IMG/VR virus record: IMGVR_UViG_3300033146_001759
Coordinates: 1-64,000 of that record
Reading direction: 5' to 3' (one strand)
DNA: 64,000 nt
Source of the DNA: a virus
Under the pieces are notes generated by a model. That model was not told the DNA's origin. It was given only the letters and a program-made list of their open reading frames with translations, and did no database searches. Of this stretch, positions 9 through 63,114 are shown piece by piece. The translations under genes and the position numbers were made by a program. Each line of letters opens with the position of its first letter. Positions within the stretch are counted from its first letter, which is position 1.

Positions 9-509
9 ATGGAAAATAAACACAAAAACAGAAAAAAGTATTTAAATATGGAAGATAAAGATCTAGTAGAATTATGTATAAATAAACCAAATATCGGTTA
101 TAATAAATTTTATAAAAAATATTATACTAACTTTTATAATTTTGCAAAAAAATATACAATAAATTCTCAAAATTTAGATGAAATCATATCTATTTCATTT
201 ATAAAAATATTTAAAAAAATACACACACTAAATGATCCAAAAAAATTAAAAAGTTGGTGCAAAATAATCATAAAAAATACATCATTAAATTTTATCCGTG
301 AAAATAAAAAACACGAACATTTAGAATTTTTAGATTATATGGATTTTAATGATGATGAAATTTATGTTGATGAATATAAAGGCATTTCAAACGAAAAATT
401 ACATAAATTAATAAATGAATTAGCCCCAAGATATAGAGAAGTTATGATAATGTATTATTTTAATGGATATTCACACCAAGAAATATCAGATATTTGTCAA
501 TTATCATAA
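9..509 (+). CDS. ECF-type RNA polymerase sigma factor, C-terminally truncated
   Basis: 166 aa. The order of motifs fits a group 4 (ECF) sigma factor: a region-2-like N-terminal half with the segment LDEIISISFIKIFKKI, then a region-4 start with LINELAPRYREVMIMYYFNG and YSHQEISDI. The protein stops at ICQLS, in the turn of the region-4 helix-turn-helix, so the recognition helix expected to read the -35 element is missing. The last 6 bases overlap the convergent gene that ends at 504. Start at 9 is the first ATG; an ATG at 48 is an alternative. It could redirect host RNA polymerase, act as a decoy or be decaying. Confidence 0.7.
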   Translation: MENKHKNRKKYLNMEDKDLVELCINKPNIGYNKFYKKYYTNFYNFAKKYTINSQNLDEIISISFIKIFKKIHTLNDPKKLKSWCKIIIKNTSLNFIRENKKHEHLEFLDYMDFNDDEIYVDEYKGISNEKLHKLINELAPRYREVMIMYYFNGYSHQEISDICQLS

Positions 510-1136
510 TACCTCTTTATTTAATATCATTCTAACTGTGGATTCAACACTACCCCCATGATAACTATCTAGTACACCCACAACATCTATAATATCTACA
601 CTAAACATATTACCTAGTGCAGCAATCATATCAGTTTTAATTTTGGTTTTATCTGATAAATAAAAATTCATTTTTTTTAAATTCATATCAAACACATCTT
701 CATCAACACCATACTCAATAAACCCCTTTTTTACAACACTTGTATCTATAAATCTAAATCGTTTACCTTTTGCATATATAATTAATACATCATTAGTATT
801 CATATCAAAATCATATACTTTTTCTTTCGAATTTTGATAATCAAATGCTCTATTTGAATCAGCATATGTATTTGCTACATTATATTTATCTGTTAAAAAT
901 AATGGTTTAGGATAAACATATGTAGTTTTAAAATTAGATACATCATTTAATAATTTGAAATATTCATCACTCAATCTTTCACTTTTTGATAATTCATCCA
1001 TATGATTATAATAACCATCAACATCTTTTAATATTTCAACAGATGTTTTTTCACCCCCATAATTAAATGAGTTTGCTTCTGGTGTTCCATGATACCATTT
1101 TTTTTCACTAATATAATATTTAAAATTCTTTATCAT
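504..1136 (-). CDS. putative ADP-ribosyltransferase-fold protein with capsid-targeting-like leader
   Basis: 210 aa. The N-terminus MIKNFKYYISE resembles the T4 head-targeting peptide and contains I-S-E, a gp21-type cleavage triad. Directly after it comes WYHGTPEA, the H-G-T signature of many H-Y-[EDQ] ADP-ribosyltransferase folds, then LFLTDKYNVANTYAD, which fits the second ART motif (substrate lid, A-x-x-Y). The end has a striking VVGVLDSYHGGS segment. The ART reading is family-pattern inference; catalytic residues are not proven. A TATATA-rich box lies just upstream of the ATG, as for the virion genes. Likely role if correct: packaged and injected protein that modifies a host target using NAD+. 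Confidence 0.55.
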   Translation of the reverse strand: MIKNFKYYISEKKWYHGTPEANSFNYGGEKTSVEILKDVDGYYNHMDELSKSERLSDEYFKLLNDVSNFKTTYVYPKPLFLTDKYNVANTYADSNRAFDYQNSKEKVYDFDMNTNDVLIIYAKGKRFRFIDTSVVKKGFIEYGVDEDVFDMNLKKMNFYLSDKTKIKTDMIAALGNMFSVDIIDVVGVLDSYHGGSVESTVRMILNKEVL

Positions 1137-9555: not shown

Positions 9556-10227
<672 letters not shown>

Positions 10228-20185: not shown

Positions 20186-21535
20186 TCAATTATTATACCA
20201 TTCATTTTCATATTTCTTAATAACTAAATACATTTCATCTTGTAAAAATTCTCCTAAATCATAAAGAAAAAACTTTATAGTATCAGATATATCATCTTTC
20301 CATATCTCTGTTCCATCTATAAGATCAAATATTTTATCAAAATCTATTATTTTTAAAAAATTATCATTACTTTTTAAATTATAAATATAATTATATTTAA
20401 AGAACTCATTATCTGATATTATCATTTCACTGAGCTTAGTTTTTATAGCTGAAAATGTTGATTTTAAATATTTTTTTATTTCTGGTATATTATAATAATT
20501 ATTAATAAAATCACCATTTTTATCATATGAATTATATTTACTACTACTTAATATTTTATTAAGATAATCATCAACATACTTTTTCATTTTTTTATTAATA
20601 TCATCATTAAATTGTTTTTGTGTTGTTTTACCAATATATAATTTATATTCTAAATATTCTTTAATTGTTTTCGTATTATGCTTAACCATATCATCAGATA
20701 ACATCTTTAAAATATTTCGAGAGATTATGTTTGTAGTAGATCTCATATTATGTATATCAGCACCAATACTATTTTCTAAATCTCTTGCAAAAACCCTATT
20801 TTGATATTTAATATGTTTTTCATAATCAATTATCCTATTTTTTATAGAATATAACTCTTTATCAGAATATTCACCTGTTAAATAATCATATAATTTTTTT
20901 TCATTTTCTATATCTTTTACTATATATAATGCCCCAATTTTATATATATAATCTAATGATTTATAGTCATCATCATCAATAATTTCTTTTGGTGAAATTT
21001 TTCTATTTTTATTACCACTATTAAAATATTTTTCATCATCATAAAAATTTATTTCAATGTTTAACTTTTTTGCATTTTCAATAATATCTTTATATAATTC
21101 TTTCTTTGAATTTAATATATCAATAGATATTATATATTCATTAATATTTTTTATTTCATCTTTATTAGATATTAATCTTTCTTCCATTTCATCAAGACTA
21201 GTATTATTTATCATTGATTTAACATCTCTTGGAGCATTCCAATAATCTATATTTATTATTTTATTATTATAATTTAATTTTTTTCCATCAAATTTAATTC
21301 TAACAGCACCATCAAATGAAAACCTATTTCCATATCCATGTTTTATAGATTTAGTTCTAGTCAAAGAAAAAAAGTACATCTTATTATTATTTTTATTATT
21401 ATCTGCAACAGATCCTATTGAACTTGTTAAATATAATTTATTTGTTTCAAGAATATTCTTCAATCTTCTAATATTTGTAAAATGATATAATATATCAGTC
21501 GCTTTTTCTAATATAAAATTATTAAATTTTTTCAT
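20186..21535 (-). CDS. putative ADP-ribosyltransferase-fold effector with capsid-targeting-like leader
   Basis: 449 aa. The leader MKKFNNFILEK is the best match here to the T4 head-targeting peptide and ends in I-L-E. It is followed at once by ATDILYHFTNIRRLKNIL, an H-F-T start as in ART-fold toxins and antitoxins. Then come a YFFSLTRTKS strand, an INIDYW loop and LDEMEERLIS, whose Glu pair would fit the catalytic acid. The C-terminal 270 residues are helical and charged, of unknown role. A TATATA box precedes the ATG. Interpretation: a late, packaged, injected NAD+-using effector; the enzymatic call is pattern-based. Confidence 0.55.
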   Translation of the reverse strand: MKKFNNFILEKATDILYHFTNIRRLKNILETNKLYLTSSIGSVADNNKNNNKMYFFSLTRTKSIKHGYGNRFSFDGAVRIKFDGKKLNYNNKIINIDYWNAPRDVKSMINNTSLDEMEERLISNKDEIKNINEYIISIDILNSKKELYKDIIENAKKLNIEINFYDDEKYFNSGNKNRKISPKEIIDDDDYKSLDYIYKIGALYIVKDIENEKKLYDYLTGEYSDKELYSIKNRIIDYEKHIKYQNRVFARDLENSIGADIHNMRSTTNIISRNILKMLSDDMVKHNTKTIKEYLEYKLYIGKTTQKQFNDDINKKMKKYVDDYLNKILSSSKYNSYDKNGDFINNYYNIPEIKKYLKSTFSAIKTKLSEMIISDNEFFKYNYIYNLKSNDNFLKIIDFDKIFDLIDGTEIWKDDISDTIKFFLYDLGEFLQDEMYLVIKKYENEWYNN

Positions 21536-26095: not shown

Positions 26096-26512
26096 ATGAG
26101 AAAACAAATTAATAATTTTACACAATGGACAAAGAAACAATTAAATGAAATTAATAACTCACATTTAATAGAAGTAATACCCAATAAATACATATATCAT
26201 ACATCAAATCCTATATTTAGAGATAAAATTAGAGAGATGGGATTAATACCAAAAAATAAGAGTGAAACTTGGTTATCAGACACAAAGATAAACGGTAAAG
26301 TTATATTTGCAGTTAATAGTGATAATAAAGTTGAGTGGTGGGATTCAACATATGATGATGATATTTATCAAATAGATACCGACTTACTCAATAATAAATG
26401 GTATAATGACCCTAATTTCGGTTTAGATAATAAGCGTATTATCACATTTAATTCTATACCAATTAATGCAATTAAACTAATATATAGGGGGTCATATTCA
26501 AATAACATATAA
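26096..26512 (+). CDS. putative ADP-ribosyltransferase-fold protein in a single-gene cassette
   Basis: 138 aa. After a charged start (MRKQINNFTQWTKKQLNEIN) comes NKYIYHTSNPIFRDKIREMG with LIPK, the Y-H-T-S...I...G-L pattern of ART-fold proteins such as KptA-like and DUF3990-like families. Then SETWLSDTKINGKVIFAVN corresponds to the second motif. The start resembles, but does not cleanly match, the capsid-targeting leader. It has its own TATATA box upstream and is bracketed by two near-identical terminators, so it looks like an inserted moron-type unit between sheath and capsid genes. Confidence 0.5.
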   Translation: MRKQINNFTQWTKKQLNEINNSHLIEVIPNKYIYHTSNPIFRDKIREMGLIPKNKSETWLSDTKINGKVIFAVNSDNKVEWWDSTYDDDIYQIDTDLLNNKWYNDPNFGLDNKRIITFNSIPINAIKLIYRGSYSNNI

Positions 26513-26588: not shown

Positions 26589-28283
26589 TTAAATTAATAC
26601 ACCACCATTATCAGTAACTTTGATACTCATATATTGCTTCCAAGGGAAGAATCCTATATCAGATATAGCATATCTACTTCTGATTAACATTCTTGGAGCC
26701 CAAGTTGCTTCAGAAATTAAGCTAATTGATTGTGCCATTAAATAAGGAATAAATACTAAACCTGGTTGATCAACACTATTCTTTCTTCCTAAGAAGATTC
26801 TGTTATCATCCCATCTCATATATGGATCAACATATATTGCAATTTGACCAATTGAACCCATTGGGTATAATTGTCCGTTTGTATTCATTTTACTCATTGT
26901 TGGAGGGTTTAAAGTATAACCAGCAACATCTTGTAATACAGATGCCATGTTACCATTAGTAACTAAATATTGTGCTGGACCTACTCTACCATCAGTAGCA
27001 ATAAAGTTAGATGCATTATTAATCTTAGCGATTAATTTTCTTTGAATTGAGTGATAAGTTTCACCACCTGGTGCATTTCCACCTAATGATGTATAAGCAT
27101 CAACATCAAAATCAAATTTTGAATTACCTGCAGCATCTTTTGGTGCAGTATGAGAATTTCTATTTTCCTCAGCTAAAACTTCAATTTTAGCAACGATTTG
27201 TTTAGAAATTGTTTGTGTTAGTTCGTTAATTAAAACTGATTCTAATTTTTGAACAATATCCATACCAGTTGAAGCTTTAATATCTTCAATCTGAGTTCTT
27301 TTAAGTGTTGAAGAAATTTCAATATCACCTACTTTTACAGATTTAGTGAATACGTCTGGTCCTATAACTCCTGGATATGTATTTTCGTCTTGCTCTCTTG
27401 ACATTGGATCATTGTTGTTCCAACCAGCAGAGAAACCTGGTAATTGGTCTTCCATTGTTGATACTAATTCAATATCAGTCATTGTTAATGCAACAGTATC
27501 ACCTGATAATAACATTGAACTACCACTTAATTGTGCTAATGCAGATGAACCAGGTAAGAATGTATTTCTTGCTTGATTATAATCATATGCAGCAACATTT
27601 GAATGTGCAGCCATTTGTCTAAATGTTCTAAACATTGGTTTACCATCTACTCTTGAGAATCCTAAGAACTCTAACCAACCTTTTTTAGAATCTTTAATTG
27701 GATTTAAAGTAACATCTACCATTGCAGCAGTACCACCAGAGAAATCTAAGAATAATCTCTTATCAATTCCACCAATTAATTCGTGAATTTTTTGCTCTTC
27801 TAATTCTTGCATAATAGCATCAACTAAAACTTTTTGTTCTGCTGGTGTATTAAATTTGAATTTGAATACTAATGGTTTTTCATCAGCTTCTTCTGGGTGT
27901 CCGTGACCTTCTGGATTATTATCATATTTAAAATCTACGAATAATAATTCAATTCTTGGAGATGAAGATGGCTTAACAGCTACTAAATCTAAACCGATTG
28001 TTTGTGCAGCAATTTTCATTGATACTGGTAAAAGGTTTTGAGCTACATCACCTGAACCTTGTACAGAACCTCTCATATCACCTGGTGTAGTTGACATAAC
28101 TGGTGCTTGAACAGCTCCCATTCCATAAGTGTTACCTAATGTAGAATAAGCTACGTTCTCATTCATTTGGTGCATTTCTGCATACTCTGATAACCATGCT
28201 TGTTTCTCAGTATCCATCACATTTAATGATTCTAATACTAATTTCCATTTTTTTTGTGCTTTCGCATTATCTACTATAAACAT
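26589..28283 (-). CDS. major capsid protein (T4 gp23-like)
   Basis: 564 aa, near T4 gp23 (521 aa). The N-terminal region with WLSEYAEMHQMNEN fits the segment removed by the prohead protease. Downstream, STLGNTYGMGAVQAP is typical of gp23 (G-N-x-x-G-M-G). The long HK97-like core includes GDIEISSTLKRTQIEDIKAS and the C-terminal strand KQYMSIKVTDNGGVLI. Its codon use is visibly less A/T-extreme than that of its neighbours, as expected for the most abundant protein. A strong candidate late promoter precedes the ATG. Gene order MCP-protease-portal is the reverse-strand T4 order. Confidence 0.9.
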   Translation of the reverse strand: MFIVDNAKAQKKWKLVLESLNVMDTEKQAWLSEYAEMHQMNENVAYSTLGNTYGMGAVQAPVMSTTPGDMRGSVQGSGDVAQNLLPVSMKIAAQTIGLDLVAVKPSSSPRIELLFVDFKYDNNPEGHGHPEEADEKPLVFKFKFNTPAEQKVLVDAIMQELEEQKIHELIGGIDKRLFLDFSGGTAAMVDVTLNPIKDSKKGWLEFLGFSRVDGKPMFRTFRQMAAHSNVAAYDYNQARNTFLPGSSALAQLSGSSMLLSGDTVALTMTDIELVSTMEDQLPGFSAGWNNNDPMSREQDENTYPGVIGPDVFTKSVKVGDIEISSTLKRTQIEDIKASTGMDIVQKLESVLINELTQTISKQIVAKIEVLAEENRNSHTAPKDAAGNSKFDFDVDAYTSLGGNAPGGETYHSIQRKLIAKINNASNFIATDGRVGPAQYLVTNGNMASVLQDVAGYTLNPPTMSKMNTNGQLYPMGSIGQIAIYVDPYMRWDDNRIFLGRKNSVDQPGLVFIPYLMAQSISLISEATWAPRMLIRSRYAISDIGFFPWKQYMSIKVTDNGGVLI

Positions 28284-28356: not shown

Positions 28357-30951
28357 TTATCTCTCCAAATTTTTAAATTTAGCGATAAATGAATCAATTT
28401 CCTCGTCAGTTAAACTTGAATTATCAATTACATTATCATTTAAAATAGTTTTGGTTTCGTTAATCATTGTATAATTTACAAGATTTCTACTTTCCCAAAA
28501 TTTTTCCATTTTTAATGAATTATTCATTGATGGATAAAGTTTTGCTTGACTAAGAATACTTACTTTCATCTTTTCATCTATTTTTTCCCATGCAGGAATT
28601 AATGAAGATGGAATATTTGATATTAATTCTTCTTCAAATGATATAGATGGTGTAAGTGTTTCGTTGATTGCAACTAATAATTGTGCTTCAGAATAGATTG
28701 GTGTTTTGCTTTCGTTTATTGCAAAGATAACTTTCTCTTTATCTTCTTCTGCTAAATCATGCCATGCTTTCTTTTTGTTCTCTGTTAAAAATTGAACAAA
28801 ATGTGGATCTTTAACCTCAGACGCTTTTCGTTTCTTAGTTTCTAAAATTAATTTCTCTATTTGTGTTGTTAATTGTTTTGTATTTTCTAATGAATCATCT
28901 CCTGTAAAATTAATTTTACTTTCATGAACTTCTTCCATATCACCAGTATTTACTTTTATTGTATAAAAACCAGTTTCTGGATTTGATGCTACTATTTCAC
29001 CCATTGTTCCATCATCTCCAAAGGATACAACAGAATTATTAGCATATTTTGTTGGATTTAAATCATCACCTTCAACAGAATTTGGCATTTCTGCGTTTGG
29101 TAATTGTGCTTGAATATTATTATCTATTGGTGCATCTTCTAAACCAACTAGCTGCACATCATCAACTGACTGCACACCATCAACTGGTTCACCTACTACA
29201 CCATCAACTGGCGCATCTTGAACACCATCAACTGGAGCTTGTACTTGTGTATCTTGAACATCATCAACTGGTGCATCTTGAACACCATCAACCGGAGCTT
29301 GTACTTGTGTTTGTACTTCACCAGCTACTTGAACAGGTGCATCTACACCATCAACTAATGCTTGTACATCACTACCATTAACTTGTGCTTGTGCTTGAAC
29401 ATTTGGTTTAACAAAATCATCATCTTCATCATAATATTTTGTATAATCATCTATTTGTGTCATATTAGGAACACTTACTGGTCCACCAGCACCCTCAGTT
29501 AACATATTATTATTAATAGCATCCACAGTATTATCTAATGATTCAGCTATATAGTTCATATATGCTTTACTATCTGATACATTTTCTGCGATATACTCAG
29601 AATATGCGATATTATTATCAACGTGTTCTGCGATATATTCAGAATATGCGATATTATTATCAACGTGTTCTGCGATATACTCAGAATAATCAATTGTTTT
29701 ATCTAAATTTTCTGCTAAGTATTCAGAATATGCAATATTATTATCTAAATTTTCTGCTAAGTATTCAGAATATGCAATATTATTATCTAAATTTTCTGCG
29801 ATATATTCAGAATATGCGATATTTTTATCTAAATTTTCTGCGATATACTCAGAATAATCATTTGATTTTTCAATAGATTCTGCTAAATAATCTGAATATT
29901 TAATATTACTATCAACGTGTTCAGCTATATATTCAGAAAAATCAATATTTTTATCTAGTGTTTCAGCTATATATTCAGAATAATTAATATTCTTATCTAA
30001 TTCTTCAGCTAAATATTCAGAATAATTAATATTCTTATTTAAATTTTCAGTTAAATGATCACTATGCGTAATTAATTTTTCTGTTGTTTCTTTCAAAGTA
30101 ATATTTTCATTAACTACAAACTGAATTTGTTCAGTAAGATAATTTAAATATTGTGTTACTTTTTGTTGTTGTTCTTGTAATAATTCTTGAGTTTCTGCTA
30201 AAGTTCTTATTTGCTCTGGTGAAACTTTTCCATTTTTTACACTTTCGTTGATTTGAATACTAATTTTATTCATTTCTCCATTTAAATACTCTGAGTATTC
30301 GTCTAATTGTTTTCCGGTAACATACTCATTGTTGTTATTCTCCATGATTAATTCATTAAATTTTGACTCGTTTGTTAACTCATATATTCTATAATTAGAA
30401 TTATTTGTTGACAAACCAAGTGATTCATTTATAGATGTCATTTTTGCAGTTCCAAAACCTGGATCGGCAACAGCATCATAAGTGAAAAGTTTCTTTACAG
30501 AAACATGTCCATTACTTTCAGTTACCCCAGCAGCTCTTGAAGAAACAAAAATAGGCAAACCATCATTGATAATTGCCTGTGCTTCTTTACCCCAGCGAGT
30601 ATTAAGTAATCTAATTTGACCATCAATTCTATTTGCTTCTTTATTATACCATACATTCTCAATAATGTGAGAAGCTCTTGATAATGAAGTATCAAATACA
30701 TCAGGATGATCAAACTCACCAAATATAACCCCAAGAGTATTTTTTCTCTCGATAAGCTCATTTAAATGAGGTACAAATTTATCAGCAGTATAAATTCTAT
30801 CATTACGGTTCATAACATCAAATTCAGTGAAGATACCACCAAGTAAATATTGTGGTTGTCCCTGTGCGTTTAATTTAGTTGCACTTTCATTTAATTTTAA
30901 ACCGGATAAAGAATTTTCTATGATAAGAACGTGTTTATTAACCTGATTCAT
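28357..30951 (-). CDS. prohead protease fused to a scaffold-like region with tandem cleavage-site repeats
   Basis: 864 aa; T4 gp21 is 212 aa. Residues 1-180 are a gp21-type (S78) protease with GEFDHP (His82) and SSRA (Ser137/138), matching the spacing of the T4 catalytic His and Ser. A coiled-coil-like linker follows (about 200-290). Then about twelve 14-residue repeats of the form NIAYSEYIAENLDN (about 296-475), each containing Y-[IL]-A-E, which itself fits the gp21 cut rule [IL]-x-E. An acidic VDGVQDAP repeat region and a helical C-terminal domain resembling scaffold proteins complete it. The polypeptide therefore appears to be protease plus scaffold (gp21 plus gp22 roles) in one chain. Confidence 0.85.
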   Translation of the reverse strand: MNQVNKHVLIIENSLSGLKLNESATKLNAQGQPQYLLGGIFTEFDVMNRNDRIYTADKFVPHLNELIERKNTLGVIFGEFDHPDVFDTSLSRASHIIENVWYNKEANRIDGQIRLLNTRWGKEAQAIINDGLPIFVSSRAAGVTESNGHVSVKKLFTYDAVADPGFGTAKMTSINESLGLSTNNSNYRIYELTNESKFNELIMENNNNEYVTGKQLDEYSEYLNGEMNKISIQINESVKNGKVSPEQIRTLAETQELLQEQQQKVTQYLNYLTEQIQFVVNENITLKETTEKLITHSDHLTENLNKNINYSEYLAEELDKNINYSEYIAETLDKNIDFSEYIAEHVDSNIKYSDYLAESIEKSNDYSEYIAENLDKNIAYSEYIAENLDNNIAYSEYLAENLDNNIAYSEYLAENLDKTIDYSEYIAEHVDNNIAYSEYIAEHVDNNIAYSEYIAENVSDSKAYMNYIAESLDNTVDAINNNMLTEGAGGPVSVPNMTQIDDYTKYYDEDDDFVKPNVQAQAQVNGSDVQALVDGVDAPVQVAGEVQTQVQAPVDGVQDAPVDDVQDTQVQAPVDGVQDAPVDGVVGEPVDGVQSVDDVQLVGLEDAPIDNNIQAQLPNAEMPNSVEGDDLNPTKYANNSVVSFGDDGTMGEIVASNPETGFYTIKVNTGDMEEVHESKINFTGDDSLENTKQLTTQIEKLILETKKRKASEVKDPHFVQFLTENKKKAWHDLAEEDKEKVIFAINESKTPIYSEAQLLVAINETLTPSISFEEELISNIPSSLIPAWEKIDEKMKVSILSQAKLYPSMNNSLKMEKFWESRNLVNYTMINETKTILNDNVIDNSSLTDEEIDSFIAKFKNLER
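29160..29350 (-). repeat. repeats encoding VDGVQDAP-type units
   Basis: Imperfect tandem units in the protease-scaffold gene (QVQAPVDGVQDAP, then VDDVQDTQVQAPVDGVQ), acidic and Gln/Val/Pro-rich; probably a flexible linker. Confidence 0.7.
29535..30050 (-). repeat. about twelve 42-bp repeats encoding 14-residue units with Y-[IL]-A-E
   Basis: Direct repeats of 42 bases inside the protease-scaffold gene. Consensus unit N-I-x-Y-S-E-Y-[IL]-A-E-x-[VL]-D-[NK]. Several central units are nearly identical in DNA, which suggests recent expansion; edge units are degenerate. Confidence 0.9.
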
Positions 30952-31037
30952 ATTTTTTTTTTTCTTTTATATATTAAGATAAAAAACACTTTTTTTTCTA
31001 TTTTATAATATGATTCAAAAGCTTTATAAAACGAACA

Positions 31038-31979
31038 CTATATCCAATCACTAGGAATAGAAGACCAATTTGTTATATTACTAATACCACCTGGCTCACA
31101 TTCGGTAAAACATTCTTCATGATTACTCACATTTGGCCAAAATATTGAATTCCAAAATTCTGGAACATCACCATTTAAATTATCACAAAACCTAAATATT
31201 TGATGAAAATTATTTATATTCGTATTATTTGAAAATAATGTACTTGATATTGTTGTTAAATTACGACAATTATTAAACATACTATCTACATTTTCTAAAT
31301 TATTATAGTATTTAAATAAATCTTGTGGTATTGTTAATATACCACTTGAACTAAATATCGCAAACATATTCGTTATATTTGATAACCCTTTAAATGCTGT
31401 TGAATCAACACTAATTAATTCTGAACAATCTTGAAAACATTGTTTAATATCTGTCAATAAAGTACAACCTTTAAATAAATCTGCTGGAATACTTGTTATT
31501 TTTGTACTAGCAAATCCCTTATCATAATAACCAAATGATTCAGATGCATCATCAATATATTTAAAACTACTATTTGGATTATTTGGTGGTAACTCATTTA
31601 ATGCCGATTCAGTAAAATTTATATATTTTAATTTTGATACATTTGGGTATCCAAAAGATATAACTTTTCTTATTTTATTATCATTATATCCAAATTTTAG
31701 TGCTTCCCATTTACCTCTAATACTTACTCTTTTTATTCCAAAAATTATATATGTATGACCAATACTATTATTTGAACCTATTTGATTAATATATTCACTT
31801 GAACCATCACCCCAATCAATTATCGCATCAAACTCATATCCATTTAATAATAACATAGATAACTCTAAATCATTTGATGGGATTTCAAATTCCAACTCAA
31901 TTTTAAAATCATCTTTTGTTAGAAAAGCACCACCAAGACCAACGAACCCACTACCTATTTTTAATCTACTAAAAATCAT
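31038..31979 (-). CDS. BspA/DUF285-type leucine-rich repeat protein in the head gene cluster
   Basis: 313 aa. A short N-terminus (RLKIGSGFVGLGGAFLTKDD) is followed by a domain with DAIIDWGDGSSEYINQIG, the W-G-D-G-S motif of PKD-like or bacterial surface domains. Then come repeats of the form F-x-[GD]-C-x-x-L-T/L-x-x-I (LFKGCTLLTDIKQCFQDCSE, FNNCRNLTTI) ending in EFWNSIFWPNV and IPSDWI, typical of BspA-like surface proteins. Placed between portal and protease and behind a TATATA box, it is probably a virion surface decoration or adhesion protein that binds host or mucus. Confidence 0.75.
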   Translation of the reverse strand: MIFSRLKIGSGFVGLGGAFLTKDDFKIELEFEIPSNDLELSMLLLNGYEFDAIIDWGDGSSEYINQIGSNNSIGHTYIIFGIKRVSIRGKWEALKFGYNDNKIRKVISFGYPNVSKLKYINFTESALNELPPNNPNSSFKYIDDASESFGYYDKGFASTKITSIPADLFKGCTLLTDIKQCFQDCSELISVDSTAFKGLSNITNMFAIFSSSGILTIPQDLFKYYNNLENVDSMFNNCRNLTTISSTLFSNNTNINNFHQIFRFCDNLNGDVPEFWNSIFWPNVSNHEECFTECEPGGISNITNWSSIPSDWI

Positions 31980-32066: not shown

Positions 32067-33809
32067 CTAAAAATCCAAACCAGCATCATCTCCACCAGCA
32101 TCATCTCCACCAGAACCATCTCCACCAGCATCATCTCCACCAGCATCATCTCCACCGAAATCATCTCCACCGAAATCATCTCCACCGAAATCATCTCCAC
32201 CGAAATCATCTCCACCAGAACCATCTCCACCAGAACCATCTCCACCAGAACCATCTCCACCAGAACCATCTCCACTAGAACTATCACCAAGCTTATATTT
32301 ATTATTTTCAGCAATATCATCATCACTCAATTTCATAATATTTCTAACTAACCATTCTACATGAAACCAAGAATTTCCTTCTGAATCAACCAAATTAGAT
32401 GATAATGTAGAAACAATCTCTGCACGTTTTGCTAAATTATTTAAATATTTCCACTCTTCAAATAAAGCATTACTATTAAAGACTAATCTATATTTTGAAT
32501 GAAATAAATTATCATCTTTTAATTCTGGAAAATCTAAAATCATTTGAATTTTATGTGGTTTAACTAATATTTCTTTATATATTGTTTGTAATCTTTTAAT
32601 ATAATTACCAAATTTTATTTCATCTCTTGTAATTTCTGTTGAGTCATTATATATATTACCACCACCACTATCTTCATCAAATCTTGAAAATGGTAATTTA
32701 CTTGCTCTTTTTAATATTTTATAGAACCATTGTAACATAGTATCTTCATTTAAATCTGTTCCTTGTGCTGCCATTATTTCAATATCTGGTGTTCCTAAAT
32801 CAGAATTAGGAAACCAAAAATCTTTTGAATGTGGAATATCAGTTGCACCATTAATAGATACTGTACCCATAGTATCATCCCATTGAACATCTTCATGATA
32901 TTCAGACATCAACTCATAAATTTGTTGTTCTGCTTGTTGTCTTGTTAAACCATTTGTTGGTATTATGAATTTCTTATATATTGCAGCTTGATTAATATTA
33001 TATAATAACCTAGTTTGTTCTAACATCTTTAATTGATTATATGGTCTAATTAAATTTTCAACATAACTCGTTTCAGCATAGTCATTATTATTAGAATATG
33101 ATATGTACACAATCTGTGAATCTAATAAAACTCTTCTTTGTTGTGGGTTATCTGGATATTGAACCCATACAATAGTAGATGTACCAGGGTCATTTGCAAC
33201 AACAATAGTCATTGGGTCAATTGGACTCAATTCAATAATATTTTTTTGCTTATTATCATAAACTATTTCATATGCAATAAATCCATCAATCAAAAAGTTT
33301 TTAAAATAATTCCATGCAGTTAATCCATCAGCAAATCCAAAATTTCTATATAATGTTTTAAATGATTCTTGGTATCTTTGTTTAATAGTATTATCAAACT
33401 CGTCTGGTAAATCAACTAAACTACAAAAATAATTATTATCATCATATATTATTGTTTCATCTGCAATTTGCGTTAAAAAATCTTTAATTTCGTCTTTAAT
33501 AGCATATTGTCTAAGTATTTTTCTTTTATCTTCATATGCTCTATCTAAATATGCTATGGATTTTCTATTTAATACTTTTGATAGTATTTTTTTAGTAAAT
33601 ATATCATAGGTTGATGTACCCCCAATTTCTCCATCTGGATCTTCATGTATTCCTTGTGAATATGTATTTTTAATAATTAAATTATCATAATCCATTCCCC
33701 AATTTGATAAATTTCTAAGTTGTTTATTAAAAAACCCTCTATTCTCAACACTTGATTGTAATGATGATTGATTTTCTTTATTATTATTATATCTATTATA
33801 TGATGCCAT
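32067..33809 (-). CDS. portal protein (T4 gp20-like) with GGD-repeat tail
   Basis: 580 aa, near T4 gp20 (524 aa). Typical portal segments: AYEDKRKILRQYAIKDEIKD, FFNKQLRNLSNWGMDYDN at the start, and RYQESFKTLYRNFGFADG. The core includes QAAIYKKFIIPTNGLTRQQA, FDEDSGGGNIYNDSTEITRD (the conserved loop before the crown) and YFPELKDDNL-like strands. The last 70 residues are about fourteen G-G-D-x-x units in blocks (GS, DF, DA types), absent from T4. The portal is the DNA entry ring and nucleates the prohead. Own promoter-like box and terminator. Confidence 0.88.
   Translation of the reverse strand: MASYNRYNNNKENQSSLQSSVENRGFFNKQLRNLSNWGMDYDNLIIKNTYSQGIHEDPDGEIGGTSTYDIFTKKILSKVLNRKSIAYLDRAYEDKRKILRQYAIKDEIKDFLTQIADETIIYDDNNYFCSLVDLPDEFDNTIKQRYQESFKTLYRNFGFADGLTAWNYFKNFLIDGFIAYEIVYDNKQKNIIELSPIDPMTIVVANDPGTSTIVWVQYPDNPQQRRVLLDSQIVYISYSNNNDYAETSYVENLIRPYNQLKMLEQTRLLYNINQAAIYKKFIIPTNGLTRQQAEQQIYELMSEYHEDVQWDDTMGTVSINGATDIPHSKDFWFPNSDLGTPDIEIMAAQGTDLNEDTMLQWFYKILKRASKLPFSRFDEDSGGGNIYNDSTEITRDEIKFGNYIKRLQTIYKEILVKPHKIQMILDFPELKDDNLFHSKYRLVFNSNALFEEWKYLNNLAKRAEIVSTLSSNLVDSEGNSWFHVEWLVRNIMKLSDDDIAENNKYKLGDSSSGDGSGGDGSGGDGSGGDGSGGDDFGGDDFGGDDFGGDDFGGDDAGGDDAGGDGSGGDDAGGDDAGLDF
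32080..32280 (-). repeat. 15-bp tandem repeats encoding GGDxx units in the portal tail
   Basis: About fourteen 15-base units. Four GGDGS units, four GGDDF units and alternating GGDDA/GGDGS units lie in blocks, which indicates slippage or recombination. Open reading in another frame across this block is an artefact of the repeat. Confidence 0.9.
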
Positions 33810-33865: not shown

Positions 33866-34582
33866 TTAAAATTTAATCAATTTTAATGATTTTTCAAAAT
33901 TCGCAACTTGTTTATGATAACCAATAGAATCTTCTTGATATTTATCCACCAATTCATCAAATTCTTCTATTATTTCTTTTAAATGAGATTTTTCATCTGA
34001 ACTAGGTAAATTAATAAATAATTCTTTCATTGATTTAGAATTATACCTCTTTGGATCACACATTATAATTTCTGGAGCTATTTTAATAGATATTAAATAT
34101 GAATCAACGATTTTTTCATAATCATATGCAGTTAATGCATAATTCATATTACCATTTGATTTTAATGTTTTATAAATATATTCGAATGATAATGGTAATG
34201 TTCTTTCTTCAACCAATTTATTTGCTTCTGATATTTTTTCTAATTGTGTACTAATTTTTGAAAATAATAAATTAAAATATTTTATTTTATATCTTGGAGG
34301 TAAATATTCTAAGTTTATTGCATATAATATATTTTTATTATTATGTACCTTATAATCCAACGCAAGAATAGGACACCATATTTTATTCCCATTATAATTA
34401 TATCTTATCAAATAAAAATGATTTGGTATAACCCTATTTAAAGACACATTTTCTATTTCTGTAAAATTTGGTGATCTCTTTAATTCAAATAATTTATTTG
34501 TTTTATCATATATAAATTTTTGCATTGAACCACTTTCTAACCCCAAAGAACCATACAAATAATTCTCAAAATCATTATACAT
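33866..34582 (-). CDS. putative virion structural protein
   Basis: 238 aa. The block NHFYLIRYNYNGNKIWCPIL followed by LYAINLEYLPPRYKIKYFNL is a pattern I associate with a T4-like phage structural family (F-Y-x-I-x-Y...P-I-L...L-N-L-x-Y-L-P), but no T4 gene name can be fixed. It overlaps the gp4-like gene by one base and precedes the portal gene, so a head or neck role is inferred. Confidence 0.6.
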   Translation of the reverse strand: MYNDFENYLYGSLGLESGSMQKFIYDKTNKLFELKRSPNFTEIENVSLNRVIPNHFYLIRYNYNGNKIWCPILALDYKVHNNKNILYAINLEYLPPRYKIKYFNLLFSKISTQLEKISEANKLVEERTLPLSFEYIYKTLKSNGNMNYALTAYDYEKIVDSYLISIKIAPEIIMCDPKRYNSKSMKELFINLPSSDEKSHLKEIIEEFDELVDKYQEDSIGYHKQVANFEKSLKLIKF

Positions 34583-35106
34583 TATAAAATTTTATTTTCT
34601 TTTAAGTGCCCCTCGTGTATTATTCTAAATTTCATTTGGTGGGCAATACACCATTTTTTTGCTGCATCCCATTTCAATAAGTTTTTTTGAAAAGTCTTTA
34701 ATTGATATTCATAAGTTTCTACTGATTTAACTGTAAATTTTTTTGGTGCTGTTGGATATTGTGTTTCTTTATATGGCTTTATTTCAGCAACTATTCTTTC
34801 AAAATTATTAGGATCATTATTTACCATAATCTCATAATATAAATCTGGATAATATCTATGTGATTTACTTATACCATTTTTATCTGCTTCATAATATATT
34901 ATACTTAATGTTTCTGACCCCCATCTTAATATTTTATTGTTTCTATCTAAAAACATAAATGTTTTTAATTCCCATCCACTACGATATATACATTTTTGTG
35001 GATCTCCCATATATTTTTGTGGATTTATTAATGTATAAAATCCTTGATGATAACGTTTTTTACCATTTCTTTTCCTATTACTACTCGGTTTTCTTGTATT
35101 TCCCAT
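34582..35106 (-). CDS. head completion protein (T4 gp4-like, nuclease-fold)
   Basis: 174 aa (T4 gp4 is about 150 aa). QGFYTLINPQKYMGDPQKCI, YRSGWELKTFMFLDRN, ILRWGSETLSIIYYEAD and HRYYPDLYYEIMV follow the T4 gp4 motif order. The PD-(D/E)xK-type core includes the E-x-K in VAEIKPY. In T4 this protein is needed to finish DNA-filled heads before tail joining. A TTTTTATATATATAAGTT box lies before the ATG. Confidence 0.82.
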   Translation of the reverse strand: MGNTRKPSSNRKRNGKKRYHQGFYTLINPQKYMGDPQKCIYRSGWELKTFMFLDRNNKILRWGSETLSIIYYEADKNGISKSHRYYPDLYYEIMVNNDPNNFERIVAEIKPYKETQYPTAPKKFTVKSVETYEYQLKTFQKNLLKWDAAKKWCIAHQMKFRIIHEGHLKENKIL

Positions 35107-48762: not shown

Positions 48763-49713
48763 TTATTTTTTAATTTCTTCTAAATATGGTGAAATTAATT
48801 CCGAAAATGTTTTCTTAACATCTTCAATATACTCTTTACCTATTGATGTTATCTTATTAGTTAATGGGTTAAAATCATCACCTATTTCTTTTGCTGGTGT
48901 TTTTGCTTCAGCATCATCATTAGAACTTATTCGTTTAGCTGTTACTTCACCACGATCATTCACATCTGATATAACTATTTTTTCTTTTTTACCATCTTTT
49001 GTTTCATAATTATAAACATCACCTTTTTTTAATTCTTTATTATGATCTTCATTTTTAGCTAATTCTTCATCTAATTTTTTCATTGATTCTTTTTGCTTAT
49101 TTTGAATTTTTTTCATTTTATCTGAATATTCATTATTTGCATCTTTTTCACTCATTTTTAAACCATTTACTAAAAAATCTATTTTTTTCTTAATTATATC
49201 TTCTTCCAACTCAACCATTTTTAATTGAGCATACATTTTAGCAGTAAATATTTCTTCACCTTTTTTATTTTTTATATATGGTTCTATTTTTTTGTGAGTT
49301 AATTTTATTTTTGTATTTATAGCTTTATCTAATTCATTTTCTGCTTCCTTTGAATCTTTTGTTGATGTATCCTTTGTTTTTGTGTGCTCTTCCATATTAT
49401 CAACAATACTTTCTTCTATAACATTATCTTCTTTATCTTTATCATCGGAATGATTCTCACTATCAATATTTTTTTTATCATTTATTGATTTTTTAAAATC
49501 TTCAACTAAATTTTTCTGTTTAAATAAGCTTTCTATATCTTCTTTTGCAGAAGCAATAATAGGATCTATTTTTTTAGCCACTTTTATTTTTTTTGCATAA
49601 TCTAACAATTTACCCCCCAAAAACTTAAACATTTTTCCTAATATACTTTCATTTATATTATTATTTTTCTCATTTAAAAAATCATCATATGTTTTTATAT
49701 TTTTTAATTTCAT
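48763..49713 (-). CDS. highly charged protein with capsid-targeting-like leader (core/scaffold candidate)
   Basis: 316 aa. Starts MKLKNIKTYDDFLNEKNNN with L-N-E at residues 13-15. The rest is Lys/Glu-rich and predicted helical/coiled (LKMVELEEDIIKKKIDFLVN; MKKIQNKQKESMKKLDEEL) with a KOW-like strand segment (LKKGDVYNYETKDGKKEKIV). Composition suits an internal core or head-packaged protein such as T4 gp22, gp67 or an internal protein. TTAATATATAAATAAAA box upstream. Confidence 0.55.
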   Translation of the reverse strand: MKLKNIKTYDDFLNEKNNNINESILGKMFKFLGGKLLDYAKKIKVAKKIDPIIASAKEDIESLFKQKNLVEDFKKSINDKKNIDSENHSDDKDKEDNVIEESIVDNMEEHTKTKDTSTKDSKEAENELDKAINTKIKLTHKKIEPYIKNKKGEEIFTAKMYAQLKMVELEEDIIKKKIDFLVNGLKMSEKDANNEYSDKMKKIQNKQKESMKKLDEELAKNEDHNKELKKGDVYNYETKDGKKEKIVISDVNDRGEVTAKRISSNDDAEAKTPAKEIGDDFNPLTNKITSIGKEYIEDVKKTFSELISPYLEEIKK

Positions 49714-60004: not shown

Positions 60005-61015
60005 TTATATATTAAAATCATACACCAATATTAATTCTTCAAATTCATTTTCAATATCACTATTCATGATTTTTATTTTTCTTAATATTTTATATCTTTC
60101 TATTTGTTTTTCTTCATTATTTTTTTTATATTCATTACTATATATATCCAAAGTATATAAAATATAATTTTTTTGCCACTCACTCGATTTAATCATCTTT
60201 TCAAAATCACCACCACATTTAAATATTTTTTTTAATTGCCAATCTTGTTCAGTAAGTATAGACATCAATATATTTTCTTTATTATCATTTATTTTATTTT
60301 TTAAGCTTATTAATATATCATTTATATCTTTATATAATTGCTCTTTTTTATTTTCGTTTACTTTATATAAATCATCAAAATTTTCAATCTTAACCACTTC
60401 GGATCCATATTGTTTTAAATATGATAATATATTTGAAATACCACCTTCATTTAATTTTTTTAAATCTATTATTATTTCAACATCATCACCATCAAATTCA
60501 AATTCAAATGGAATATTTACATTATTAGCATATAATACTTTTGCGCTTTGTAAAACATATCCTATATTATATCCTATATTCTCAACAAAAGTATGCAATT
60601 TTGTATATCCTAATAATTCAAATAATGTTTCAAATCTATCATCTTCATCATATTTTAAATTAAACAACGCATTTATTTCTTTGGAGGTTTTCATAGCATC
60701 ACCATTAAAATAATCTACATATTCTGTGTTTTCCACTGATTCATCTGGTGGATCCATAGACAAATAATCATTATACATCTTTATACTATAATCTTCTGCA
60801 TCAAAATCAAAAAAATCATTCAAATCCCCAATATCCATAAATAATGAAATTTTCTTTTCAGTTAAATCTATTACATATTCTTTTACATCATCTATACCAA
60901 TTAATTTTTTTATATGTTCTTTATCACCAAATTCAAATTCATATATTATATCATCTCCCAATGGGATAGTATCACCATTTTTTTCTTCTTTTATAAAATT
61001 ATTAAATTTTTTCAT
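60005..61015 (-). CDS. leader-bearing paralogue 1 of 3
   Basis: 336 aa. Leader MKKFNNFIKE. The body is a helical, acidic protein with a central strand domain (IPFEFEFDGDDVEIIIDLKK) and a C-terminal block CGGDFEKMIKSSEWQKNYIL shared with the next two genes; it ends VYDFNI. TTTAATATATAATAATT box upstream. Probably a head-packaged protein; no enzymatic motif seen. Confidence 0.6.
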   Translation of the reverse strand: MKKFNNFIKEEKNGDTIPLGDDIIYEFEFGDKEHIKKLIGIDDVKEYVIDLTEKKISLFMDIGDLNDFFDFDAEDYSIKMYNDYLSMDPPDESVENTEYVDYFNGDAMKTSKEINALFNLKYDEDDRFETLFELLGYTKLHTFVENIGYNIGYVLQSAKVLYANNVNIPFEFEFDGDDVEIIIDLKKLNEGGISNILSYLKQYGSEVVKIENFDDLYKVNENKKEQLYKDINDILISLKNKINDNKENILMSILTEQDWQLKKIFKCGGDFEKMIKSSEWQKNYILYTLDIYSNEYKKNNEEKQIERYKILRKIKIMNSDIENEFEELILVYDFNI

Positions 61016-61023
61016 ATCAATTA

Positions 61024-62064
61024 TTATATATTAAATTCATCTGCTGCTACCAAATATTTAAATTCTAAAACAATATCATCATTAATTAAATTATTACTTT
61101 TTAATTCATTATATTTATCTAACATAGTTAATTTCTCACTATATTCATTTTTAGTTCTCCCATTCACAAGATATTCTTTTTGCCATTCATATGATATAAT
61201 ATTATCATAAAAATCACCACCAATTTCTTTTATATAAAAACTATGTTTTGGTAATAAATCGTTTGCTATTTTTTCTGTATTTTTTTTCATATATTCATAA
61301 ATAGTTTCCAATTGTTTTTTAATTTTACTATCAAATATATTTTTTTCTTTTTCATTTATATCAACATCTGTATCTATGTCATCTATTTTTGAAATATTTT
61401 TACTCATATTATCTAATGCACTCTTAATATCATTAAAATCATCAGCCATTATAGTTAAATTAAATGTCATTCTAACTTTATCCCCAACTATATTAAAATA
61501 TAAATATGTTAATGATTCATCTATTTTTTTAGCTACTATTTGCATTAATTGTGTATATATAGATTCAATATATGATATTATTTCATCTAGAGTATCTTCT
61601 ATTATTTTATGTTTACTATAAAATATAACTTGTTTTATCATATCAACAAAAGTATCTTCATCTGGTGATTTAATATTAAACAATTTATATATTTTTGTTA
61701 ATATTTCTTCATGTTCAGTATTCAAATATGCATTTAATCTAAATTCTGAAAATTTATATTCATTATCTAACAATTCAATATATTCTCTTAACATAGTATC
61801 ATCTATTTCTAAATAATTACTAATATCATCTTCATCAACATCAATATCAACATATGTTCTATTATGTAAATCACGATGAGTATAACTACAATCATAAACC
61901 ATATATGATTCTAATTTAACTAATTTATCTATTTCTTCTTCATACCTATTTTTTTCATCATCTGACAATTTTTTAAATTCTTCTTCAGTTAAATAAATAG
62001 AATAAAACTTGTCTGCTAGTATTAATTCCTTATTTTCAAACAAAAACGTATTATATCTTTTCAT
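61024..62064 (-). CDS. leader-bearing paralogue 2 of 3
   Basis: 346 aa. Leader MKRYNTFLFE (L-F-E). Shares with paralogue 1 the layout and the block GGDFYDNIISYEWQKEYLV, and ends AADEFNI. The central strand domain reads YFNIVGDKVRMTFNLTIMAD. TATATAAG box upstream. Role unknown. Confidence 0.6.
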   Translation of the reverse strand: MKRYNTFLFENKELILADKFYSIYLTEEEFKKLSDDEKNRYEEEIDKLVKLESYMVYDCSYTHRDLHNRTYVDIDVDEDDISNYLEIDDTMLREYIELLDNEYKFSEFRLNAYLNTEHEEILTKIYKLFNIKSPDEDTFVDMIKQVIFYSKHKIIEDTLDEIISYIESIYTQLMQIVAKKIDESLTYLYFNIVGDKVRMTFNLTIMADDFNDIKSALDNMSKNISKIDDIDTDVDINEKEKNIFDSKIKKQLETIYEYMKKNTEKIANDLLPKHSFYIKEIGGDFYDNIISYEWQKEYLVNGRTKNEYSEKLTMLDKYNELKSNNLINDDIVLEFKYLVAADEFNI

Positions 62065-62067
62065 AGC

Positions 62068-63114
62068 TTATATATTAAAATCTCCAATTACAATAAATTT
62101 TTCTCCATCTTCTTTTATTTGTGGGTGAATTATATCTTTATATTTAAACATAAACTCCTTATAATTTTTTTCAATATCATTATTCCTAAAGATATATGAT
62201 TTTTGTTCATCATATTTTTTTAATTCATCAAGGAACAATCCTCCCATATTATAAATATCACCATAAAATTTATATGTAATTCTATTAAGAATATCTTCTT
62301 TATTATTTAAAATATCAACATATAAATTATCTAATTCATTTGATACATAATCATTAAATTCTTTAGATTCATCATTTGATAGTTTAATATTTTTATATGT
62401 ATTTATTTTCTCAAAATTATCTTTATTATATTTTAAAACATCACTTATATTTTTTATATCATTTGGTAATATTTCAATATCTATTTTAATATTTATATTT
62501 AATTCATCCAATTCAATCGTCATATATTTAAAGTCATTATTTATATTTTCTACATTTTTTTTTACTAAATCTCTACTAATATTATTCATTCTATTGATTA
62601 TATTAGCATAATTTTTAAACCAAGTATAAATTAACATTTCATTTAATACTAAAAAATAAATTCCTATTTTTTGTTCATTTTTATCAATATTAAATATATC
62701 TAATATCTTTACTATTTTATTTTTATTATCATCAGTTAAAAACTCAAATAATGTTTGTTGAGTTATTAGTTTTTCACCTTCTAAAATATCAAAATAGTTA
62801 TATAAAAACCATTTTTTAATTTCCAATAAATCCGCAAATATACTAGAATCACTAATAATATTAATTATATTAGGTTTTTCATATTCTACTAAAAGTTTTT
62901 CTTGATACTTAATATTATTACTTTTTATAATATCTTTCATTTTTCTATAATTAAATCTATTTTCATTTGATATTTTTTTCACATAATCATAATCAATATC
63001 CATTAATATTGATGCTTTATTCTTCAATGATAAATTACTAAATTCGGTTAATGATAACAATTCCCAATTTTTTATTGATTCTAATATAAAATTATAATAT
63101 TTCTTCATCTTCAT
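62068..63114 (-). CDS. leader-bearing paralogue 3 of 3
   Basis: 348 aa. Leader MKMKKYYNFILE (I-L-E). The related C-terminal block reads GGLFLDELKKYDEQKSYIF and the end is VIGDFNI; the strand domain is FKYMTIELDELNINIKIDIE. Most diverged of the three. A TATATATATA box lies just before the ATG. Confidence 0.6.
   Translation of the reverse strand: MKMKKYYNFILESIKNWELLSLTEFSNLSLKNKASILMDIDYDYVKKISNENRFNYRKMKDIIKSNNIKYQEKLLVEYEKPNIINIISDSSIFADLLEIKKWFLYNYFDILEGEKLITQQTLFEFLTDDNKNKIVKILDIFNIDKNEQKIGIYFLVLNEMLIYTWFKNYANIINRMNNISRDLVKKNVENINNDFKYMTIELDELNINIKIDIEILPNDIKNISDVLKYNKDNFEKINTYKNIKLSNDESKEFNDYVSNELDNLYVDILNNKEDILNRITYKFYGDIYNMGGLFLDELKKYDEQKSYIFRNNDIEKNYKEFMFKYKDIIHPQIKEDGEKFIVIGDFNI

Follow-up and report, generated by a model that had tools for sequence, protein, structure and literature searches.

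A single gene of this phage joins a gp21-type prohead protease to a long scaffold-like region, and that region contains an array of 14-residue units that match, in register, the capsid-targeting sequence (CTS) of phage T4. We think it probable that this one precursor releases itself and does the jobs that T4 divides between gp21 and gp22, with its array of CTS-like modules being cut after each Glu. The gene lies in the window, the whole 64,000-nucleotide stretch analysed here, which is part of a 72,957-base IMG/VR record.

The fusion gene, its neighbours and its protease

The fusion ORF stands directly before the capsid gene, with the portal gene upstream:

32067..33809 (-): portal, T4-type (PF07230, E=6e-65)
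31038-31979 (-): 313-aa gene between portal and fusion, LRR-like, phrog_9915
30960..30980 (-): TTAATATATAA element before the fusion gene, late-promoter-like, common to the portal and capsid genes
28357..30951 (-): protease-scaffold fusion gene, 864 aa, ATG start (ORF call; same layout in relatives)
26589..28283 (-): major capsid protein, Gp23 family (PF07068, E=8e-26)
28158-28160 (-): codon of E42, predicted capsid propeptide cut MNE42/N, after E42 ([LIM][NH]E-N conservation)

The T4 order 20-21-22-23 is mirrored by portal, fusion and capsid gene, plus the extra 313-aa ORF; in many relatives a small MILTREI..KINES ORF, which may encode a homing endonuclease, fills that slot. An element of the form TTwATATATAAtA lies 23-38 nt before the portal (33809), fusion (30951) and capsid (28283) genes, both in the window and in relatives, and is likely a late promoter. 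A similar element is found before 21644 (+). The C-terminus of the portal is encoded by a 15-bp tandem repeat (32079-32280, (-); 13.5 copies, 94%) that specifies GDGSGGDDFGGD-like units, and the portals of relatives likewise end in Gly-rich tails. The head-closure protein at 34582-35106 (-), phrog_218, also matches the TnsA-like endonuclease PF08722 (E=5.6e-14).

A profile scan finds relatives of the fusion at no fewer than 556 IMG/VR loci. Its nearest matches in annotated collections are uncultured huge phages of 635-735 kb, which have been placed, together with Lak, in the Mahaphage clade (PMC7162821). The first-pass annotation had proposed a single ORF running from protease through repeats and an acidic stretch to a scaffold-like end, and had pointed out that protease and scaffold are separate genes in T4. 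The ORF is real and its layout is kept in the relatives, and the two functions are encoded separately not only in T4 but also in five other T4-like phages (PAU, Vibrio 2.275.O, 121Q, S-WAM1 and Mosig). The parts of the fusion, all on the (-) strand, are as follows:

30424..30951 (-): prohead protease domain, residues 1-176, with H82, S137 and D159 (PF03420, 5JBL fold, triad alignment)
30421..30432 (-): predicted protease-release site I-N-E176/S, cut after E176 (motif conservation; alignment with T4 Glu187)
30349..30396 (-): embedded nucleotide-conserved element, codons 186-201, degenerate in the window phage with GAGTCAAAA kept
30343..30345 (-): Met203, a conserved internal Met and putative start site for a scaffold-only product
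30076..30315 (-): residues 213-292, helical stretch leading into the array, with degenerate units (AF2 helices)
29530..30075 (-): 13 contiguous 14-residue units, residues 293-474, no indel
29530-30033 (-): the 12 units with Y[IL]AE, residues 307-474
29032..29493 (-): low-complexity acidic region, residues 487-640, with 24- and 60-bp DNA repeats
28906..29031 (-): small Tudor/SH3-like beta-barrel, residues 641-682 (AF2 strands, pLDDT about 80)
28357..28896 (-): C-terminal helical domain, residues 686-864 (AF2)

The protease half belongs to the gp21 family. Its match to Peptidase_S77 (PF03420) scores 38.4 bits against a curated cut-off of 27, the PHROG match of the fusion N-terminus is 'head maturation protease', and T4 gp21 (5JBL) is the best solved structure by sequence and by fold alike (Foldseek, AF2 model versus 5JBL: E=1.7e-7, TM(target) 0.70). 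AF2 structure prediction was run on sequences of the window and of IMG/VR. The residues H82/S137/D159 align with H85/S140/D168 of T4. The domain and His82 had been called correctly at first, and the nucleophile had been placed at Ser137/138; because S137 aligns with T4 S140, the nucleophile is S137 and not S138. The motif [ILVM]NES at E176 is kept in 25/25 homologues; in alignment E176 falls on Glu187 of T4 gp21, and Lak, PAU and 121Q retain it. This invariance, together with the match to Glu187, makes E176 the likely protease-release site. It had been missed by the first-pass annotation, as had the CTS match of the unit and the element before the internal Met.

The 14-residue array and the N-terminal tags

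Twelve 14-residue repeats with Y-[IL]-A-E had been counted at the outset. All twelve are present, and a first unit with HLTE in place of Y[IL]AE brings the number in register to 13; a further unit-like segment is seen at residue 265. The motif [LI]xE occurs 13 times in the repeat block, against 4.6 in composition-preserving shuffles (0/2000 reach 13), and 35 times in the whole fusion protein, against 13.2 in shuffles. The repeats fit the gp21 cleavage rule, L/I-X-E (PMC9026906), as had been claimed, and since fusion, repeats and fit are conserved across the huge-phage clade, the claim that the protein carries its own cut sites is supported.

How strictly is the Glu kept? A unit search that gave no score to position 10 located 886 in-register units in 79 distinct homologues; Glu occupies that position in 876 (Gly in 8, Thr in 1, Lys in 1, Asp in 0). 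The codons of this Glu, GAA 664 times and GAG 212 times, occur in nearly the proportion seen for Glu throughout these genes. At position 6, the other acidic site, Glu is found in 81% of units, and among the polar positions of the unit Glu10 is less variable than the rest. Val at P3, in 12% of units, is off the strict T4 L/I rule. The longest run of units is 9-14 in 76 homologues, and the array is split 6+5 in two. Lak phages have the fusion, with the array absent. What speaks most against a universal cut-site rule is LR756500 (L006), the most divergent homologue, which scores poorly in the unit search and in which, judged by eye, the 14-residue register is kept with Glu in 7/12 units. Homologues with repeats that lack Glu had been named beforehand as the observation that would count against cut sites; LR756500 is in part such a homologue, whereas 876 of the 886 units in the 79 homologues carry Glu.

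The unit resembles a known tag. T4 IPII and IPIII share the N-terminus MKTYQEFIAE, in which residues 4 and 7 serve targeting and residues 8 and 10 processing, and in which Asp at position 10 stops processing and leaves targeting intact (PMC9026906). The unit is in register with this tag at Y4, Y7, [IL]8 and E10 (Y4xxY7[IL]8xE10), and its composition fits the CTS criterion of aromatics at 4 and 7, an aliphatic residue at 8 and Glu at 10. When the unit profile was scored against T4 windows, IPII ranked 3rd and IPIII 7th of 9229, a result that is suggestive only. On our reading, the array is a tandem series of targeting/cut modules.

Tags of the same kind are found at the N-termini of other ORFs. 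The motif [YF]xx[YFWL][LIV]xE, tested per gene, occurs at 8/92 ORF N-termini in the window phage (0.39 expected, p=7e-7), at 21/209 in the 735-kb relative LR756501 (1.27 expected, p=1e-15), at 5/107 in LR756500 (0.38 expected, p=2e-4) and, weakly enriched, at 5/264 in LR745206 (0.93 expected, p=0.006). With D or K in place of the final Glu, the motif shows no significant enrichment in any of these four phages; among the other control residues at that position, Leu is enriched in LR745206 and Gly in the window phage. Enrichment of a plain N-terminal [LI]NE was set aside, being mostly due to one recurring ORF family (MILTREI..KINES). The tagged ORFs likely encode packaged internal proteins:

20186-21535 (-): tag MKKFNNFILEK
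60005-61015 (-): tag MKKFNNFIKEE
61024-62064 (-): tag MKRYNTFLFEN
62068-63114 (-): tag MKMKKYYNFILES
48763-49713 (-): tag KTYDDFLNEK
504-1136 (-): tag FKYYISEK
L104 1284-2207 and 2729-3451 (+): two further tagged ORFs, beyond the window

The first of these, 20186-21535 (-), has a weak ADP-ribosyltransferase-like match (Tox-ART-HYD1, below cut-off), and 26096-26512 (+) has a weak RNA 2'-phosphotransferase-like match (PHROG E=0.0015). Their products may be counterparts of Alt, a packaged protein of T4.

Might the array serve above all to dock CTS-tagged cargo, as a ladder or assembly interface, with its cleavage a secondary matter? The targeting residues, the aromatics at 4 and 7, are common to unit and cargo tags, and tags stand on about 9-10% of sampled ORFs in two of these phages. 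As the principal function, docking is possible and in our view rather doubtful, for it leaves the near-invariant Glu10 unexplained, a residue that in T4 matters for processing and not for targeting. Docking and cutting are, of course, compatible and not exclusive. A purely structural array is a different matter. Here the 14 residues would be two heptads of a rod, Glu would serve packing or salt bridges, and cuts would be made only at the [LI]NE-S sites outside. One might think so from the register, which is without indel in most homologues and kept even where Glu is lost, as in LR756500, from the AF2 prediction of helix, though at low confidence (pLDDT 37-54), and from the hydrophobic residues that recur at unit positions 2, 4, 7, 8 and 12. 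A mere rod does not account, however, for a Glu10 that varies less than its polar neighbours and is never Asp, nor for the surroundings of Glu10, which are the processing half of the T4 CTS and of these same phages' N-terminal tag, and we consider it unlikely.

Predicted processing of the precursor and a possible nested product

Does the non-protease part act like a scaffold? The case for the 'scaffold-like end' of the first-pass annotation is made by its helix content and by where the gene lies. The acidic region and the helical end are there; gp22 homology is not, for hhalign gives the C-terminal domain a probability below 1% against T4 gp22 and the 121Q, Vibrio, S-WAM1, Mosig and PAU proteins. 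The candidate that this domain is a homologue of gp22 or of other annotated scaffolds was therefore rejected, no homology being detectable by hhalign. The domain is common to L006 and L016 (hhalign probability 99), and the barrel before it matches Tudor domains weakly in Foldseek (E about 0.01-0.05). No separate scaffold gene was found between fusion and capsid gene, though other T4-like phages have one there, and the scaffold part of the fusion fits this gp22-type position. We infer that the non-protease part acts like a scaffold, and it is not demonstrably a gp22 homologue.

Conserved [LIVM]xE sites are found at 22, at 176, in the array (302-470), and at 486, 704 and 747. Residues 475-680 hold one [LI]xE, at 486, the acidic stretch being nearly free of such motifs. 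Capsid N-termini carry [LIM][NH]E/N, with Glu and Asn invariant in 65/65, and the cut is predicted to fall after the Glu. Cuts at all of the mapped sites are predictions, read from conserved motifs.

What course of events would such a protein follow? The one precursor would do the jobs of T4 gp21, the protease, and gp22, the scaffold, and the protease domain, joined to the scaffold, would be taken along into the prohead core. A long helix bearing 11-14 tandem copies of the phage's own targeting/processing module, Y-x-x-Y-[IL]-A-E, would form the middle of the protein. Upon shell closure, the protease would free itself by cutting after INE176, before S, and the freed enzyme would cut the array after each Glu, probably in trans. 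The same protease would cut the capsid propeptide after MNE42, as well as packaged proteins at their matching N-terminal tags. This would break the scaffold rod into peptides of some 14 residues that could exit because they are small, and tagged cargo, which may bind the core through mimicry of the scaffold unit, would lose its tie to the core when cut. The earlier picture of an enzyme in the core shredding its own scaffold agrees with the fusion and the motifs, and is better read as cutting in trans, inside the prohead, after self-release.

The junction of protease and scaffold holds a conserved nucleotide element, with the family consensus AACTTTAGGATATATGAnnTrTCCGAyGAGTCAAAAAT, just upstream of the internal Met. 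Of the 10 strongest codon biases in 290 columns conserved at the amino-acid level, 7 fall in residues 186-198, and the codons concerned include AGG and the rare TCC (4% usage; 51 of the Ser193 codons). The internal Met is at the aligned column in 74/77 homologues, and that of the window phage stands two alignment columns earlier. An internal late promoter was rejected, as a matrix built from 29 sites upstream of portal, fusion and capsid genes does not select the element. A hairpin at the element can be formed by 55/62 sequences, with a mean folding z of -2.5 versus -1.0 to +1.0 elsewhere. The RNA hairpin was nevertheless set aside as unsupported, since pair counts are without covariation beyond shuffles and alifold on all 62 gives no structure. 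The hairpin is absent from the window phage, where the element is only partial. The element matches no Rfam family and does not recur elsewhere in the records searched.

Our best guess is that the element is a signal for a scaffold-only product, and an internal start is known in T4 gp21. Such a nested product would also mend the 1:1 ratio of protease to scaffold. That the C-terminal part is instead just a long propeptide of the protease, the main scaffold being a separate, unrecognised gene, seems very unlikely, for although it would suit the want of gp22 homology and the T4 copy numbers of about 100 gp21 to about 576 gp22 (PMC5694885), which are unlike a 1:1 fusion, there is no separate scaffold gene between fusion and capsid gene, the length, helicity and conserved cut-like sites resemble those of a scaffold, and the nested product could mend the ratio. 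A bolder version of the preferred reading, the self-releasing precursor, is a gene within a gene, in which the element drives the scaffold-only product and the scaffold is a polymer of targeting tags that loads cargo like-with-like, one protease and one motif then serving both to release the cargo and to destroy the scaffold. This we offer as speculation that may well prove wrong. A nested product, if real, would give the herpesvirus protease-scaffold gene a counterpart among phages.

Comparison with known systems

The fusion is like T4 gp21 and gp22 in protease fold, triad, L/I-X-E motifs, gene order and the equivalence of Glu187 and E176, and gp22 is also a scaffold rich in cut motifs, with 16 [LI]xE. 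It differs in that the T4 proteins are encoded by separate genes and that the gp22 motifs are irregularly spaced, with neither a 14-mer array nor C-terminal homology. The T4 CTS (IPII/IPIII, MKTYQEFIAE then A) is alike at positions 4, 7, 8 and 10 and in the style of the N-terminal tag. In T4, however, it is a single tag on cargo, whereas here 11-14 tandem copies are also found inside the scaffold.

Fusions of protease and scaffold are known elsewhere. Phage P2 gpO is, by description, alike in having an N-terminal protease and a C-terminal scaffold and in cutting itself and the capsid protein, but it is a protein of 284 aa for which no comparable repeat array is described (PMC7552001). Herpesvirus UL26/UL26.5 is a protease-scaffold precursor with a release site; UL26 differs in its few described sites, R and M, and the in-frame nested scaffold gene UL26.5 is the model for a hypothetical product from the internal Met of the fusion (PMC4498786). 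In the Lak megaphage prohead protein, too, this protease is followed in the same chain by an acidic middle part and a helical end. That protein lacks the 14-mer array, and its C-terminal similarity is marginal (hhalign E=0.04). Given the P2 gpO and UL26 fusions and the 16 motifs of T4 gp22, the architecture is less unprecedented than the first-pass annotation suggested. Fusion and multiple cutting each have a precedent; for the tandem targeting/cut array none was found in the literature searched.

The fusion is a concrete candidate in the clade with the largest genomes, and it suggests that one and the same module serves as targeting tag and as scaffold unit. With a readable rule for the cut sites, packaged proteins of uncultured phages would become predictable from their N-termini.

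Two minor observations concern other parts of the window. Sites like TATCTTTG, which we take to resemble the Bacteroidetes TAnnTTTG promoter, lie upstream of 4737, 9556 and 17637 (+) and of 39437 (-). Bacteroidetes hosts have been reported for Mahaphages, and the sites are consistent with such hosts. A perfect (ATG)11 microsatellite is present at 10175-10208, at the end of ORF 9556-10227.
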